A stretch of DNA of 52,731 nucleotides from Phycisphaerae bacterium. Lineage in GTDB: Bacteria; Planctomycetota; Phycisphaerae; Sedimentisphaerales; Anaerobacaceae. Shown in pieces: positions 5,853-52,731 of the stretch; position 1 is the first letter of the stretch; every line of letters starts with the position of its first letter. A program made the position numbers and the translations under genes. The stretch covers positions 1-52,731 of the forward strand of contig JAAYBV010000062.1 in assembly GCA_012744475.1 (NCBI GenBank), read 5' to 3'. Below the pieces are notes generated by a model that saw only the letters and a list, made by a program, of their open reading frames with translations, had not been told where the DNA came from and made no database searches.

Positions 5853-5880
5853 GCAGGGGCGAATAATCATTCGCCCCTAC
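5853..5880. repeat. Short palindrome, family A, between convergent genes
   Basis: Near-perfect palindrome built on AGGGGCGAAT-aatc-ATTCGCCCCT, 18 nt after the stop of the 807-aa protein and just beyond the convergent HEPN remnant. The position would suit a bidirectional 3'-end structure. Confidence 0.85.
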
Positions 5881-31020: not shown

Positions 31021-31038
31021 CGTGCGACCCAAGGCAGC

Positions 31039-31056
31039 GGCGAATGATTATTCGCC
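31039..31056. repeat. Short palindrome, family A, between convergent genes
   Basis: GGCGAATGATTATTCGCC, 18 nt after the UDPGP stop and 10 nt from the convergent galM stop. Same family as 2386-2405 and 5853-5880. Confidence 0.85.
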
Positions 31057-31065
31057 CCTACGCGG

Positions 31066-32355: not shown

Positions 32356-32383
32356 GCAGGGGCGAGGCATGCCTCGCCCCTGC
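32356..32383. repeat. Short palindrome, family B
   Basis: A 28-bp perfect palindrome centred on GGGCGAGGCATGCCTCGCCC, 20 nt after the stop of the LamG protein on the minus strand. Further copies lie at 51935-51957 and 51971-51991. Confidence 0.85.
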
Positions 32384-40697: not shown

Positions 40698-42059
40698 ATG
40701 AGGAAGTCATCCGCCGAAGGCGGATTCCGCCAAGCCGGCTCGATCCTACCGGCGCCGGCGAAGCAGGCCAAATCCGAAATCCGTATGTCGAAATCCGAAA
40801 CAAGCACGAAAGCCCAAAACCCAAAATTCGAAAGCGGCCTGCGGCCGAAGGTTTGGGACATTAGGATTCGGTTTATTCGAATCTGTTTCGGATTTCGGGT
40901 TTCGGGTTTCGTGCTTTACGTTGTGCTGGCAGCGGCGGTGATGTTGCAGGGCTGTCGCTCGCCCTCGGTGCGGCGGCTGGATCGGATCGACGCGATGGTC
41001 AACGAGGAGATCGCCGCCGGGCATGTCCCCGGCGCGGTCGTGCTGGTCGGGCGGTCGGATCGGATTCTCTATCACAGGGCGTTCGGATCGGCCATGATCG
41101 TAGGGGCGAATGATGATTCGCCCGTACGGAAGCCGATGGGGATCGACACCGTCTTCGACTTGGCGTCACTGACCAAGCCTATCGCGACCGCAACGTCGAT
41201 CCTGATCCTGGCGGACCGAGGCCAACTGAACATCGACGATCGCGTCGGCGCCTACCTTCCGGCCTTCGCCTGTGCCGGCAAGGCCGATGCGCGAATCCGG
41301 CATCTGCTGACTCACACGTCGGGCCTGCCGGCGTATACCACCGCCAAGCCGCTGGCCGACGAGTATGGCAGCCCGTGCCCGGAGCAGGTGATCGAGAAGA
41401 TTTGCCGCCTGGAGGCGATGAATGCGCCGGGCGAGGAGTTTCGCTATAGCTGCCTGGGTTACATCGTGCTGGCTCGCATCGTCGAGATCGTCTCCGGCCG
41501 GAACGTCGCGGAATTCAGCAAAGAGAACATCTTCGAGCCGCTGGGCATGCACCGGACGACGTTCAACCCGCCCACATCCTGGGAGGACGGGATCGCCGCA
41601 ACGCAGATCGTCGACGGCAAGCCCTTGCGCGGAACCGTCCACGACCCGCTGGCCCAACTGATGGATGGCGTCAGCGGCAACGCGGGTCTGTTCTCGACCG
41701 CGTTCGATCTGTCGATCTACTGCCGGATGCTCCTCAACGGCGGCGCTTGGCACGGGACGAGAATCCTGAGCCCCGATGCCACGCGAATGCTGACGACGGT
41801 CCAGTCCCACGGCCGCGCCTACGGCTTCGACGTCGCCTCCGATTACGCATGGCTCAAGGGCCCGCACGCCTCCGAGCAGGCGTTTTGTCACACTGGGTAC
41901 ACCGGAACCAGCATCGTGTGCGATCCGGCCGTCGATACGTACGCGATCCTCCTGACCAACCGCGCGCACCCACACGACAAGGGCACCGTACGAGAGCTGC
42001 GGCTCAAAATCGCCGAGGCGGTCTTTCAGCCACGTGGCTCCGTCGTCGCAGGCCGGTGA
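40698..42059 (+). CDS. Serine hydrolase (beta-lactamase/DD-peptidase class C type), probable lipoprotein
   Basis: A serine hydrolase with all three active-site elements: S-x-x-K in DLASLTKPIAT (Ser codon at 41166), a Y-x-N-like Y-S-C motif in EFRYSCLGYIVLA, and HTG in FCHTGYTGTS. Such proteins are DD-peptidases, esterases or beta-lactamase-like. A lipoprotein signal, YVVLAAAVMLQGC, precedes the domain. The true start is unresolved: ATG at 40698, ATG at 40785 or GTG at 40911 are in frame, none with a good ribosome-binding site. All codons before the lipobox are read from palindromic repeat DNA. A further 30-bp palindrome (41099-41128) lies in frame before the SLTK motif, adding about GANDDSPVRK. 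The 3' end overlaps the convergent symporter by 34 nt. Confidence 0.88.
   Translation: MRKSSAEGGFRQAGSILPAPAKQAKSEIRMSKSETSTKAQNPKFESGLRPKVWDIRIRFIRICFGFRVSGFVLYVVLAAAVMLQGCRSPSVRRLDRIDAMVNEEIAAGHVPGAVVLVGRSDRILYHRAFGSAMIVGANDDSPVRKPMGIDTVFDLASLTKPIATATSILILADRGQLNIDDRVGAYLPAFACAGKADARIRHLLTHTSGLPAYTTAKPLADEYGSPCPEQVIEKICRLEAMNAPGEEFRYSCLGYIVLARIVEIVSGRNVAEFSKENIFEPLGMHRTTFNPPTSWEDGIAATQIVDGKPLRGTVHDPLAQLMDGVSGNAGLFSTAFDLSIYCRMLLNGGAWHGTRILSPDATRMLTTVQSHGRAYGFDVASDYAWLKGPHASEQAFCHTGYTGTSIVCDPAVDTYAILLTNRAHPHDKGTVRELRLKIAEAVFQPRGSVVAGR
40709..40725. repeat. Short palindrome, family F
   Basis: ATCCGCC-gaa-GGCGGAT. The same type occurs at 43576-43592 (ATCCGC-tgcag-GCGGAT) and 3295-3311 (GTCCGCC-tgc-GGCGGAC), the other two inside long palindromic elements. 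Confidence 0.7.
40789..40916. repeat. Long palindromic element overlapping the 5' end of the serine hydrolase
   Basis: Two pairs of perfect arms: CGAAATCCGAAACA (40789-40802) with TGTTTCGGATTTCG (40884-40897), and AAGCACGAAA (40802-40811) with TTTCGTGCTT (40907-40916). The centre is the GC palindrome CGGCC-tgc-GGCCG (40835-40847). The GTG at 40911 that could start the lipoprotein lies inside the right arm. Confidence 0.8.
41099..41128. repeat. Family A palindrome inserted in frame in a coding sequence
   Basis: Arms CGTAGGGGCGAAT and ATTCGCCCGTACG flank a 4-nt centre with one mismatch. At 30 bp it adds 10 codons without shifting the frame of the serine hydrolase. Confidence 0.85.
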
Positions 42060-43399
42060 TCTGCGGGCGAGTCGGCTCGATCCAAACCCACCAGGTTCTC
42101 CCTGGTGGCGACCGCGTAGGAGCAGACCAGGTCGCCGGTGACGTTGTTCATCGTCTCGAACATGTCGAGAATGGGATTGATGCCGAGCGCCAGCGCCACG
42201 ATCACCGCCACCTGCTCGGCGCTCAGGCCCATGCTTTCGAGAATGACGAACAGCAGCATCAGGCTGCCGCCGGGGACGCCACCGGCGCCGATGGAGGCCA
42301 GCACCGTGGTGATCACCAGCACCGCCAGCATGCCGACCGTCAGCTTGACGTCGAACATGTTGGCCGCCAGGACCGCGAACATCGGCAGGTGGACGCACAC
42401 ACCGTCCATGTTGATCGTCGCGCCCAAAGGCAGCGAGAAGCTGGCCAACTCGTCATGGATCTTCAGCTCCTCGTGCGCGGTCCTGATCGACACCGGTAAC
42501 GTCGCGGCGCTGCTGCGCGTGATAAACGCCATGATCATCGGTTCGCGGATGCGCTTGAGCACGCCAAACGGATTGTGGCGCGTCACTGCCCACAGCAGCA
42601 GCGGATAGACGACGAAAACCATCGCTCCGATACCAAAGATGACGCCCAGCGTCACACTGACGTAGGGCCCGACGATGGATGGGCCGTAGAGCCCGAAGTT
42701 GACAATCGACAAGGCCAGCACGCCGATGGGCGAGTACTCGAGAATCCAGTCGACCAGTTTGAACATCGTGTCCCGGCAGGCTTCGAGCAAATCGATCAAG
42801 CCCTCCAGACGCCTGATCTGACGGGCCTCGCCTGCCTCAATCAGCACGCGAATCGCCAGGCCGAACAGGATGGCGAAGATGATGATGGGCAGGAAGTTGC
42901 CCGTCGCCAGCGCCTCGAACGGATTGCGGAACAGGTTCAGCACGATCTGCGAAAGCGCCCCCTGCTCGGTTGCGCCCTTGGCCACGTCGCCTGCCTCTGT
43001 CATCTTGAGATCCGCCAGCTTGCGCCAGGCGTCCAGATCGGCGCCGGCTCCCGGATCCAGAGCCAGAGCCAGGCCTGTCCCAAGAACCGCAGCCAGCAGG
43101 CTCGTCGCCAGATACCAGGCAATGGTCTTGAGCCCGATGTGCCCGAACCTCTTGATCGGCAGGCTCGAAGCGCCGACCACGAGAGAAAAAAAGATGATCG
43201 GCACCACGATCATCTTGAGCATGTGCACGAAGACCTGGCCGAAGGGAAGGATGTAGGGGATGACGGCTTGCGAGACCATCGCCTCGCCCGAGCGGGATCG
43301 GGACCAGAACAGAACGCCGATCAGCGAGCCGATGAGGAAACCAGCGAGAATCCGCAGGATCAGAGACGTCTGGAAGTACAGCCGCAACAGCTTATTCAT
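42026..43399 (-). CDS. Dicarboxylate/amino-acid:cation symporter (DAACS family)
   Basis: A 457-aa membrane transporter of the glutamate/aspartate/dicarboxylate family with eight membrane segments. Diagnostic motifs are the serine-rich hairpin ITRSSAATLPVSI, the NMDG motif in LGATINMDGVCVHLP, the hairpin-2 motif ASIGAGGVPGGSL, and the final binding helix DMFETMNNVTGDLVCSYA with the conserved Asp and Asn residues. It couples uptake of anionic substrate to Na+ or H+. The start at 43399 is preferred (AGGA about 11 nt upstream); 43411 is also possible. The last 12 codons overlap the end of the convergent serine hydrolase. Confidence 0.93.
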   Translation of the reverse strand: MNKLLRLYFQTSLILRILAGFLIGSLIGVLFWSRSRSGEAMVSQAVIPYILPFGQVFVHMLKMIVVPIIFFSLVVGASSLPIKRFGHIGLKTIAWYLATSLLAAVLGTGLALALDPGAGADLDAWRKLADLKMTEAGDVAKGATEQGALSQIVLNLFRNPFEALATGNFLPIIIFAILFGLAIRVLIEAGEARQIRRLEGLIDLLEACRDTMFKLVDWILEYSPIGVLALSIVNFGLYGPSIVGPYVSVTLGVIFGIGAMVFVVYPLLLWAVTRHNPFGVLKRIREPMIMAFITRSSAATLPVSIRTAHEELKIHDELASFSLPLGATINMDGVCVHLPMFAVLAANMFDVKLTVGMLAVLVITTVLASIGAGGVPGGSLMLLFVILESMGLSAEQVAVIVALALGINPILDMFETMNNVTGDLVCSYAVATRENLVGLDRADSPADHRPATTEPRG

Positions 43400-43535
43400 G
43401 GACGCGTTCATCCTTTCGACGCACGTCGTGCCGTCCTTGCGGCACACGGCGCCAGGATTCTACAGTGGCCCTCGCGCGGCGACAACCTGCAAGTCGCCAA
43501 GTCATTGACCCCTGAAGCGACTTGTGGTATAGAGA

Positions 43536-51652: not shown

Positions 51653-51712
51653 TGGCGTGCCACGTGTGCCAACACACACCCCTGTTGTTGGCACGTGGCA
51701 CGTGGCACGCCA
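51653..51712. repeat. Terminal hairpin family, copy 1
   Basis: Perfect outer arms TGGCGTGCCACGTG (51653-51666) with CACGTGGCACGCCA (51699-51712), and inner arms TGCCAACA (51667-51674) with TGTTGGCA (51686-51693). Together they give a 22-bp stem with a 5-nt bulge and an 11-nt loop, CACACCCCTGT. Confidence 0.85.
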
Positions 51713-51840
51713 TCGTCACATCCATGGATCTGCCCTAGTCCAGGCGTTGGTGGAGAACAGGATGTGTGGAGACTCCGCACGGTGATCCCATGCCAGTGCC
51801 AAGTGCCAACACACACCCCTGTTGTTGGCGGTGGCACTGG
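51667..51840. repeat. Composite repeat unit, copy 1
   Basis: Starts inside hairpin copy 1, runs through about 80 nt of unique sequence and ends with hairpin copy 2. The first 124 nt match 52301-52424 with 3 mismatches and no gaps. Confidence 0.85.
51793..51840. repeat. Terminal hairpin family, copy 2
   Basis: Outer arms CCAGTGCCA/TGGCACTGG and inner arms GCCAACA/TGTTGGC around the same 11-nt loop as copy 1. Confidence 0.85.
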
Positions 51841-51934
51841 TACTGCCGCTGGAATGGCACATTTGCAGGGACGCTGGGAGGCGTCATTGTTCCGAAGGTG
51901 GGTATGCCCTTACGAGCACACGGCAAACGGGGAA

Positions 51935-51957
51935 GGGCGAGGCATGCGTCGCCCCTA
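51935..51957. repeat. Short palindrome, family B
   Basis: GGGCGAGGCATGCGTCGCCC, one mismatch from the perfect copy at 32356-32383. Confidence 0.75.
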
Positions 51958-51970
51958 CGGGTCAATGGTA

Positions 51971-51991
51971 GGGGCGAGGCATGCCTCGCCC
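51971..51991. repeat. Short palindrome, family B
   Basis: A perfect GGGCGAGGCATGCCTCGCCC core, 14 nt after the previous copy. Confidence 0.85.
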
Positions 51992-52018
51992 GGAATGGGT
52001 TGCGGATCGGCAGGCCGT

Positions 52019-52261
52019 ATGAGCCCAATGCGATCACAGAACGACATCGAGTTCATCCTGATGCAGAGGAATCCCGGCGGGTATCGGCAACCTACGGATG
52101 AGCAACGGCGCCAGAGCCGAATCGAGAAGGCCCAGTTTAATAAGTGGTTCCAGCAGATGTGGAAGATCCCCGGGGCGTCCACACGGAATCCTCCTGCTCC
52201 GTTCCCTTTGGAGCTGGCCACATTATCCCACCTGCGAGCGACCCGCCAGCGTATCGGCTGA
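52019..52261 (+). CDS. Possible small hypothetical protein
   Basis: An 80-codon frame (MSPMRSQNDIEFILMQRNPG...) between repeat blocks. The middle (TDEQRRQSRIEKAQFNKWFQQMW) has protein-like composition with a charged helix, but there is no ribosome-binding site, no recognised family and both flanks are repeats. It may be a gene remnant. Start codons at 52019 or 52028 are possible. Confidence 0.25.
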   Translation: MSPMRSQNDIEFILMQRNPGGYRQPTDEQRRQSRIEKAQFNKWFQQMWKIPGASTRNPPAPFPLELATLSHLRATRQRIG

Positions 52262-52290
52262 CCGGGATGCGCTGGGAGAGACTGCAGTGC

Positions 52291-52344
52291 CAGTGCCAAG
52301 TGCCAACACACACCCCTGTTGTTGGCACGTGGCACGTGGCACGC
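52291..52344. repeat. Terminal hairpin family, copy 3
   Basis: The same inner stem and 11-nt loop as copy 1. The right arm equals that of copy 1, but the left arm (CAGTGCCAAG) equals that of copy 2, so the outer stem is imperfect. Confidence 0.8.
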
Positions 52345-52473
52345 CATCGTCACATCCATGGATCTGCCCTGGTCCAGGCGATGGTGGAGAACAGGATGTG
52401 TGGAGACTCTGCACGGTGATCCCATGGCGTGCCAAGTGCCAACACATACCCCTGTTGTTGGCGGTGGCACTGG
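52301..52473. repeat. Composite repeat unit, copy 2
   Basis: Second copy of the unit at 51667-51840, again ending in a hairpin (copy 4). Confidence 0.85.
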
Positions 52474-52476
52474 CAC
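52425..52476. repeat. Terminal hairpin family, copy 4
   Basis: Inner stem and loop as in the others, with CACAT for CACAC in the loop. The left arm is TGGCGTGCCA-like (copy 1 type) and the right arm TGGCACTGGCACC (copy 2/5 type), so it looks chimeric. Confidence 0.8.
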
Positions 52477-52604
52477 CGGTCACCTCCAGAGGCCACGCGA
52501 CCTGGACACTCTTGCCTGTCTTACCAGGAATTCCCATATTGGCTCATCCAGGCTGCGTGATAGGCAAAGAGGTTATATATGGACTGTGTCTGATACGCTT
52601 GAGT

Positions 52605-52650
52605 CAGTGCCAAGTGCCAACACACACCCCTGTTGTTGGCGGTGGCACTG
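52605..52650. repeat. Terminal hairpin family, copy 5
   Basis: Outer arms CAGTGCCA (52605-52612) and TGGCACTG (52643-52650) around the shared inner stem and loop. About 55 nt after it resemble, with divergence, the sequence after copy 4 (GACCTG, then ACTCTTGCC). Confidence 0.85.
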
Positions 52651-52731
52651 GCACCGCCTGCGTCCACCGGCCAGGGGACCTGTCGACTCTTGCCCATCTT
52701 CCCAGATCGCAGGGTGTGCCATCTACACCAG

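Follow-up and report, generated by a model that had tools for sequence, protein, structure and literature searches.

A REPIN consists of two REP hairpins in inverted orientation. REPs that lie within genes, some of them in frame and including cases in recB-type repair genes, are already in print (Di Nocera, De Gregorio and Rocco 2013, PMC3733652). According to the passages of that paper compared here, GTAG REPs are reported from Planctomycetes, with R. baltica named, and from Verrucomicrobia, and are linked to RAYT genes; the GTAG is an unpaired tag at one end of the repeat, and the Rickettsia palindromic elements, which are CGTC-tagged, are inserted in frame in a wide variety of coding genes.

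The movement of REPs is hard to read, since most copies are intergenic and empty sites align poorly there. In-gene copies with empty, filled, or swapped sister sites make the insertion step readable, namely, that target DNA is removed and that the site of one repeat family can be occupied by another. Here we describe such copies of a palindrome family, family A, starting from the window, i.e., the whole stretch of DNA analyzed (52,731 nucleotides), which is the entire contig C39 of G000, a planctomycete genome of 5.75 Mb. The relatives used for comparison were G001 to G005, the five further genomes from this genus.

The family-A palindrome and its serine-hydrolase carrier

The palindrome under study and the related repeats and genes of the window are as follows.

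40941-42059, plus strand: PF00144 serine hydrolase (beta-lactamase/esterase fold) carrying the family-A element
41100-41127, no strand: family-A palindrome GTAGGGGCGAATGATGATTCGCCCgTAC, 28 bp, inside the serine-hydrolase gene
41100-41129, plus strand: insert codons, ten codons reading VGANDDSPVR, formed by the 28-bp element and two bases 3' of it
42026-43447, minus strand: putative dicarboxylate-symporter-like gene, adjoining the hydrolase gene and empty in G000
2382-2409, no strand: family-A copy, not flagged as in-gene
5853-5880, no strand: family-A copy, not flagged as in-gene
31034-31061, no strand: family-A copy, not flagged as in-gene, with a same-site copy in G004
32356-32383, no strand: family-B palindrome with center GGCATGCC and GTAGGGGCGA-type arms as in family A
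51931-51958 and 51968-51995, no strand: two family-B palindromes

The palindrome in the hydrolase gene is near-perfect, with 1 mismatch to the consensus GTAGGGGCGAATNATNATTCGCCCCTAC. The initial annotation was right that it is real and lies in this gene, and erred in its extent, which had been given as 30 bp at 41099 to 41128. With up to 3 mismatches allowed, the family-A 28-mer was found 149 times in G000 (matches on each strand), 69 times in G004, 39 in G005, 28 in G002, and 23 in G001, and not at all in G003 or in the 35 other genomes of the family or order that were searched, while the reversed-sequence control gave 0 in every genome. With up to 8 mismatches, 809 kb of fetched G000 sequence held 106 copies, versus 1 in a single base shuffle. 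The likeness to other copies claimed at the outset is thus beyond chance on both counts, and the copies at 2382, 5853, and 31034, which had been described as intergenic, were indeed not flagged as in-gene. A draw of 392 genomes from the phylum, which left out G001 to G005, returned the 28-mer at up to 2 mismatches in 13 genomes, with 115 copies in G000 and no more than 9 in any other.

The hydrolase is listed as an open frame from position 40698; its true start is uncertain, and the orthologue search began at 40941. The protein matched PF00144 with an E value of 1.1e-65 and 222.5 bits (cut-off, 27), and the insert sits about 20 residues ahead of the SLTK motif. The SxxK motif itself (S76-x-x-K79) was unchanged in all four aligned sequences. 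We presume that the enzyme still works despite the insert; it is possibly a lipoprotein.

Alignment with close homologues, which had been proposed as a check, showed the insert in none of those compared. Thirteen homologues, picked from 29 other loci of the orthologue search, could be aligned across the site, and all lacked the element, 11 with a six-residue gap and 2 with a seven-residue gap. The insert was likewise absent from G001 to G005, which have four codons (E-P-x-x) at this place, and the DNA alignment gave an 18-nt gap against all four orthologues aligned. Judged from these alignments, the 28 bp replaced about 10 bp, with a net gain of 18 nt, i.e., 6 codons, and not the exactly 10 codons that had been annotated. 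The polar insert, initially given as about GANDDSPVRK, reads VGANDDSPVR. In an AlphaFold2 model of modest confidence (four sequences; mean pLDDT, 64.5), the insert forms residues 54 to 63 within a low-confidence stretch, 54 to 73, before the helix of S76-x-x-K79. This fits a predicted position in a tolerant surface loop; since the model is of modest confidence, the placement is mostly alignment based.

Other repeats were seen in the window. An inverted-repeat stretch at 40740 to 40930 (CCGAAATCCG... / ...CGGATTTCGGG) lies upstream of and partly within the open frame of the hydrolase and may supply its promoter or first codons; its core, GAAATCCGAAA, was counted 23 times, spread over 13 stretches, in 1.33 Mb of G000. 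A 54-nt unit containing GTGCCAAGTGCCAACA and ACCCCTGTTGTTGGC is clustered in five copies near the contig end, at 51657 to 52705; the former core was present in no other fetched stretch and the latter in one other.

In-frame copies in other genes and in sister genomes

In-gene copies were called with a codon-usage model trained on the long ORFs of G000 (frame accuracy over 120 bp, 0.89 on the training set), a copy being flagged when the frame was open through the element and the flanks were coding on both sides. In the first G000 sample (809 kb), 21 of 106 copies were flagged, or 20 after L086_8859 was dropped, all in one phase. The dropped copy turned out to be intergenic, with the opposite strand scoring higher and the element at the stop codon of the upstream gene; this family-A copy (L086:8860-8887) lies directly 3' of the gene and forms part of its stop codons (TAG TAG). 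At L073_15020 the flanks were coding in different frames, and the site probably spans two genes. The phase was then predicted in writing before a second G000 sample (523 kb) was drawn without regard to where copies lay; of 35 copies there, 3 were in genes, and each had the expected phase. One of these differs from family A at 8 positions and from family B at 4. When both samples (1.33 Mb) were recounted under stricter rules, 20 of 131 copies remained in genes, all in phase 0, and 111 were unflagged. Among family-A copies with up to 3 mismatches, the in-gene share was 16 of 81 in the first sample and 1 of 17 in the second, a difference due to the first sample, but not the second, having been chosen for its exact copies. 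The search of a related genome for in-gene copies, which had also been suggested, was productive: 800 kb of G004 held 26 copies, 7 of them in genes in phase 0, including 2 orthologous to sites already counted. One G004 hit in phase 2, with 8 mismatches, was counted as chance; the homologous G000 stretch is without the element.

The carriers are diverse. When 17 further carrier proteins were scanned, 15 had Pfam matches, in one case (L070) only below the cut-off; the matches included a GlcNAc epimerase, an FtsK-like protein, a squalene cyclase, an amidotransferase, ThuA, a lamin-tail/CotH protein, an MTHFR-like protein, an acyltransferase, GH127, an FtsH-like protein, AddB, and a cytochrome c protein with the hydrazine-synthase-alpha middle domain. 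The AddB-like gene (L093:8685-12326, on contig C62 of G000) contains palindromes in frame at three separate sites, and these belong to two families. A large cytochrome protein with PF18582, the hydrazine-synthase-alpha middle domain (L057:14001-18491), has a decayed palindrome close to the C terminus. On this sequence evidence, the window gene is one instance of a recurring process in these planctomycetes.

All 20 strict in-gene copies of G000 share one reading phase, and most encode (V/A)GANxxSPL; the first-sample peptides are (V/A)GAN(D/N)xSP(L/V)x or a decayed form of it. The frame was open through the element in 209 of 212 readings in phase 0, 110 of 212 in phase 1, and 66 of 212 in phase 2. 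Intact GTAG ends put a TAG at the start of every phase 1 reading, and most loop types close phase 2, leaving a real choice of frame only for the GATGAT/CATCAT loop class. The single phase is therefore largely forced by the stop codons that fill the other two frames. A frame-aware insertion mechanism was considered and is not needed, since stops and selection account for the phase. Within the family-A in-gene loops of the strict set, Asp-Asp was read 8 times and His-His 0 times (two-sided sign test by hand, p 0.008), a result that is no more than suggestive; the His-His reading does occur in two viral-contig ORFs, L369 and L370. At the 10 sites common to G000 and G004, the dN/dS of the inserts was 0.56, versus 0.24 in the flanks, so that the codons of shared inserts appear to evolve more loosely than their surroundings, and constraint on the inserts was not clear from this test.

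Twenty G000 sites were searched for in G004, and 14 had alignable orthologues, 10 of them filled in frame and 4 empty. Relative to empty relatives, the net change, read from the alignments by eye, was +18 nt in the window gene, the MTHFR-like gene, and an acetyltransferase-like gene, and +21, +27, +27, +33, +15, +9, and -9 nt at further sites. The last value belongs to the symporter-like gene next to the hydrolase, whose G004 orthologue holds an in-frame family-A copy. A clean 30-bp insertion with a 2-bp duplication, another candidate, is argued against, +30 having been seen at no empty site compared. The changes are multiples of three because the compared genes stay open, most simply through selection, and their spread shows, as far as alignments can, that the amount of target DNA lost varies. 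Nine of 141 G000 copies had both flanks homologous in the searched part of G004, and no clean intergenic empty site was found among them; the empty sites are in-gene.

Two sites differed in the kind of repeat they held. The FtsK-like gene and addB carry family A in G000 and G004 and a decayed form in G001; in G005 the position is taken, in frame, by GTAG hairpins that belong to a different family. The G005 addB insert is a clear head-to-head hairpin pair, and its FtsK-like insert is, by our own reading, one clear hairpin with a decayed partner. With strands summed, this other GTAG family had 47 matches in G005, 43 in G003, and 4 to 7 in the others, and its control gave one match over all genomes.

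A tree of fragments around eight sites in six genes, in which G002 is mostly gaps, placed G000 outside G001, G004, and G005 with 100% support; the G004-G005 node received 53%. At the MTHFR-like site, G000 and G004 have the element, and G001, G005, G002, and G003 do not. Over 13 sites, divergence within 45 bp of the element versus further out was 0.263 versus 0.175 in pairs differing in the element, 0.183 versus 0.147 where both were filled, and 0.099 versus 0.128 where neither was, in a comparison whose pairs are not independent and to which misalignment at gap edges may contribute.

A RAYT-like gene and related palindromes in phage genes

A candidate for the mover was found elsewhere in G000, on contig C77.

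L130:11629-12198, or from 11587: RAYT-like gene with family-B palindromes on both sides and inside

The palindromes lie 18 bp 5' of the ATG, in frame inside the gene, and 4 bp after the stop. The protein scored 65.3 bits against NF047646 (E value, 5e-18), below the curated cut-off of 80, and 25.7 bits against PF01797, over the cut-off of 23, and has an HUH-type motif. Since families A and B have arms in common, we infer that family A may be moved by this RAYT-like protein. A relative with 84% identity is present in G005, and no close relative was found in the other four genus genomes, including G004 with its 69 family-A copies. Neither family A nor family B was present within 1.5 kb of any of 18 other Y1-transposase loci. 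Another gene, L043, exceeds the NF047646 cut-off with a score of 101.6; it has neither repeat nearby. About 300 bp upstream of the L130 gene there is a fragment resembling the first 25 residues of the RAYT-like protein.

In scans of IMG/VR viral contigs, 9 stretches had the family-A 28-mer without mismatch, 52 had the wider arms pattern, and 33 had a shorter family-A core; removal of duplicates left 122 copies in 65 loci. Twenty-four distinct viral ORFs were put through family searches, and 11 matched; the 13 without a family match were left out of the phage count. In the following matched genes the palindrome lies inside the gene in phase 0.

L307:3400-4920: Mu-type phage portal (L308, from another metagenome, has the identical 6.6 kb)
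L369:4626-6404: second Mu-type phage portal
L316:480-2153: phage terminase large subunit
L355:2546-3640: phage head-maturation protease
L323: capsid-protease fusion

The palindromes of L307, L316, L369, and L355 are GTAG-type and encode VGAxxxSP. Those of L321 (lambda-type portal), L370 (ParB-like), L302, and L303 lie outside or between the matched domains, and that of L331 lies between two. The portal L335 holds a related palindrome in phase 1, counter to a strict phase rule. The terminase stretch of L316 is five codons longer than in phage relatives and likewise exceeds the solved terminase 6z6d in length; at L369 and L335, 9 of 10 and 10 of 10 residues, respectively, have no counterpart in phage relatives. 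L307, L355, and L323 are too divergent from theirs for a clean insertion to show. REPs in frame in phage structural genes were not found in the open-licence literature, judged by title and abstract start.

Possible origins and comparison with known repeats

We consider it likely that family A is a GTAG-type mobile REP whose insertion replaces target DNA and whose in-frame loop cases survive. Empty relatives, in-frame sites, variable net length, and a RAYT-like gene with sister repeats are what was observed in its favor. Family A would be a small nonautonomous mobile element that has spread in the genus, with 0 to about 150 copies per genome, probably moved by a RAYT-like tyrosine transposase acting on a GTAG-tagged hairpin in single-stranded DNA. 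A copy landing in a gene would usually break it and be lost; in surviving copies, 28 bp would have been swapped for a stretch of the target with the frame intact and the peptide in a tolerant loop. Read in the surviving phase, the element gives (V/A)GAN(D/N)xSP(L/V)x, a short stop-free polar peptide; the other two phases are mostly interrupted by stops. Selection would produce the frame bias of the in-gene copies. More tentatively, and with less than even probability, GTAGGGGCGA-N8-TCGCCCCTAC elements may be portable VGAxxxSPL cassettes that enter bacterial and phage genes by target replacement, with families converting in place and phages carrying them between hosts. The in-gene copies themselves show how selfish DNA can add peptides to functional proteins, those of phage portals, packaging, and head proteases apparently among them.

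Other origins were weighed against a mobile REP. An ordinary loop-length polymorphism with a palindrome matching by chance can be given practically no credence: the site is a variable loop of the PF00144 fold with gaps in printed alignments, but the 28-mer has one mismatch where control counts are zero and like DNA recurs in one phase in many unrelated genes, so that copy number and controls refute this origin. Selection for the peptide itself, as a polar loop or tag of benefit to the carrier proteins, is highly improbable. The in-frame state at 10 of the 14 sites compared with G004 and the eight Asp-Asp against no His-His loops in the strict family-A set would suit it, but the insert dN/dS exceeds that of the flanks, the carriers are unrelated, His-His is read in the two viral-contig ORFs, and other species keep empty forms of the genes.

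Without any transposase, the element could have been captured in error-prone repair or template switching, an unlikely origin that nevertheless has several results on its side. Capture would explain the variable target loss and the raised divergence beside insertions; net changes do span -9 to +33 nt, divergence close to the element (up to 45 bp) is raised most in pairs differing in it (0.263 versus 0.175), and two sites hold the other GTAG family in G005 and family A in G000 and G004. It leaves unexplained, however, the amplification of one GTAG-ended sequence and the RAYT-like gene between sister repeats. Arrival by interspecies exchange of gene segments or by phage instead of local transposition seems to us rather improbable. 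The fill pattern of the MTHFR-like site is at odds with the tree, whose G004-G005 node has only 53% support, and related palindromes are present in viral contigs, but sliding identity gave no clear tract of extra similarity around that site, and the window insertion is missing from the five other genus genomes.

As a probable mobile REP, family A is to be set beside the described systems. Like the GTAG REPs, as given in the passages of PMC3733652 compared, it is a short palindrome with a GTAG end and many copies, mostly intergenic and some in-gene; its 28 bp and 149 copies agree with their size and number (20 to 40 bp, many copies), and its 20 in-gene and 111 unflagged copies of 131 agree with their location. 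The GTAG of those REPs is unpaired, whereas that of family A pairs with CTAC in a full palindrome, and the repeats flanking the RAYT-like gene are of family B, not A. The L130 gene resembles RAYT genes (NF047646, PF01797) in its HUH-type motif and in the sister repeats on both sides, and differs from them in scoring below the curated cut-off of NF047646 and in carrying an in-frame repeat itself. REPINs (PMC3116915, in the part of that paper compared) are unlike family A, which is one 28-bp hairpin; the G005 addB insert alone has the REPIN layout.

The initial annotation had drawn a parallel to the Rickettsia palindromic elements, which holds for an in-frame mobile palindrome in coding genes with empty relatives and fails for the sequence class: those elements have a CGTC end motif and belong to another phylum, and family A, ending in GTAG/CTAC, is nearer to the GTAG-type REPs. 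Its statement that no planctomycete case had been described has to be narrowed, in-gene REPs and planctomycete GTAG REPs each being in print (PMC3733652, in the passages compared). By title and abstract start, the open-licence literature gave no report on family A under planctomycete REPs or in-gene palindromes, and the letters GTAGGGGCGA led to no paper on repeats. The recB-type carriers of PMC3733652 have their counterpart here in the AddB-like gene with its three in-frame palindromes. Target replacement and in-place change of family do not appear in the passages of that paper compared, and both were seen here. In-gene REPs are thus a kind already known; the repeat swap, the target replacement, and the phage-gene cases are newer.
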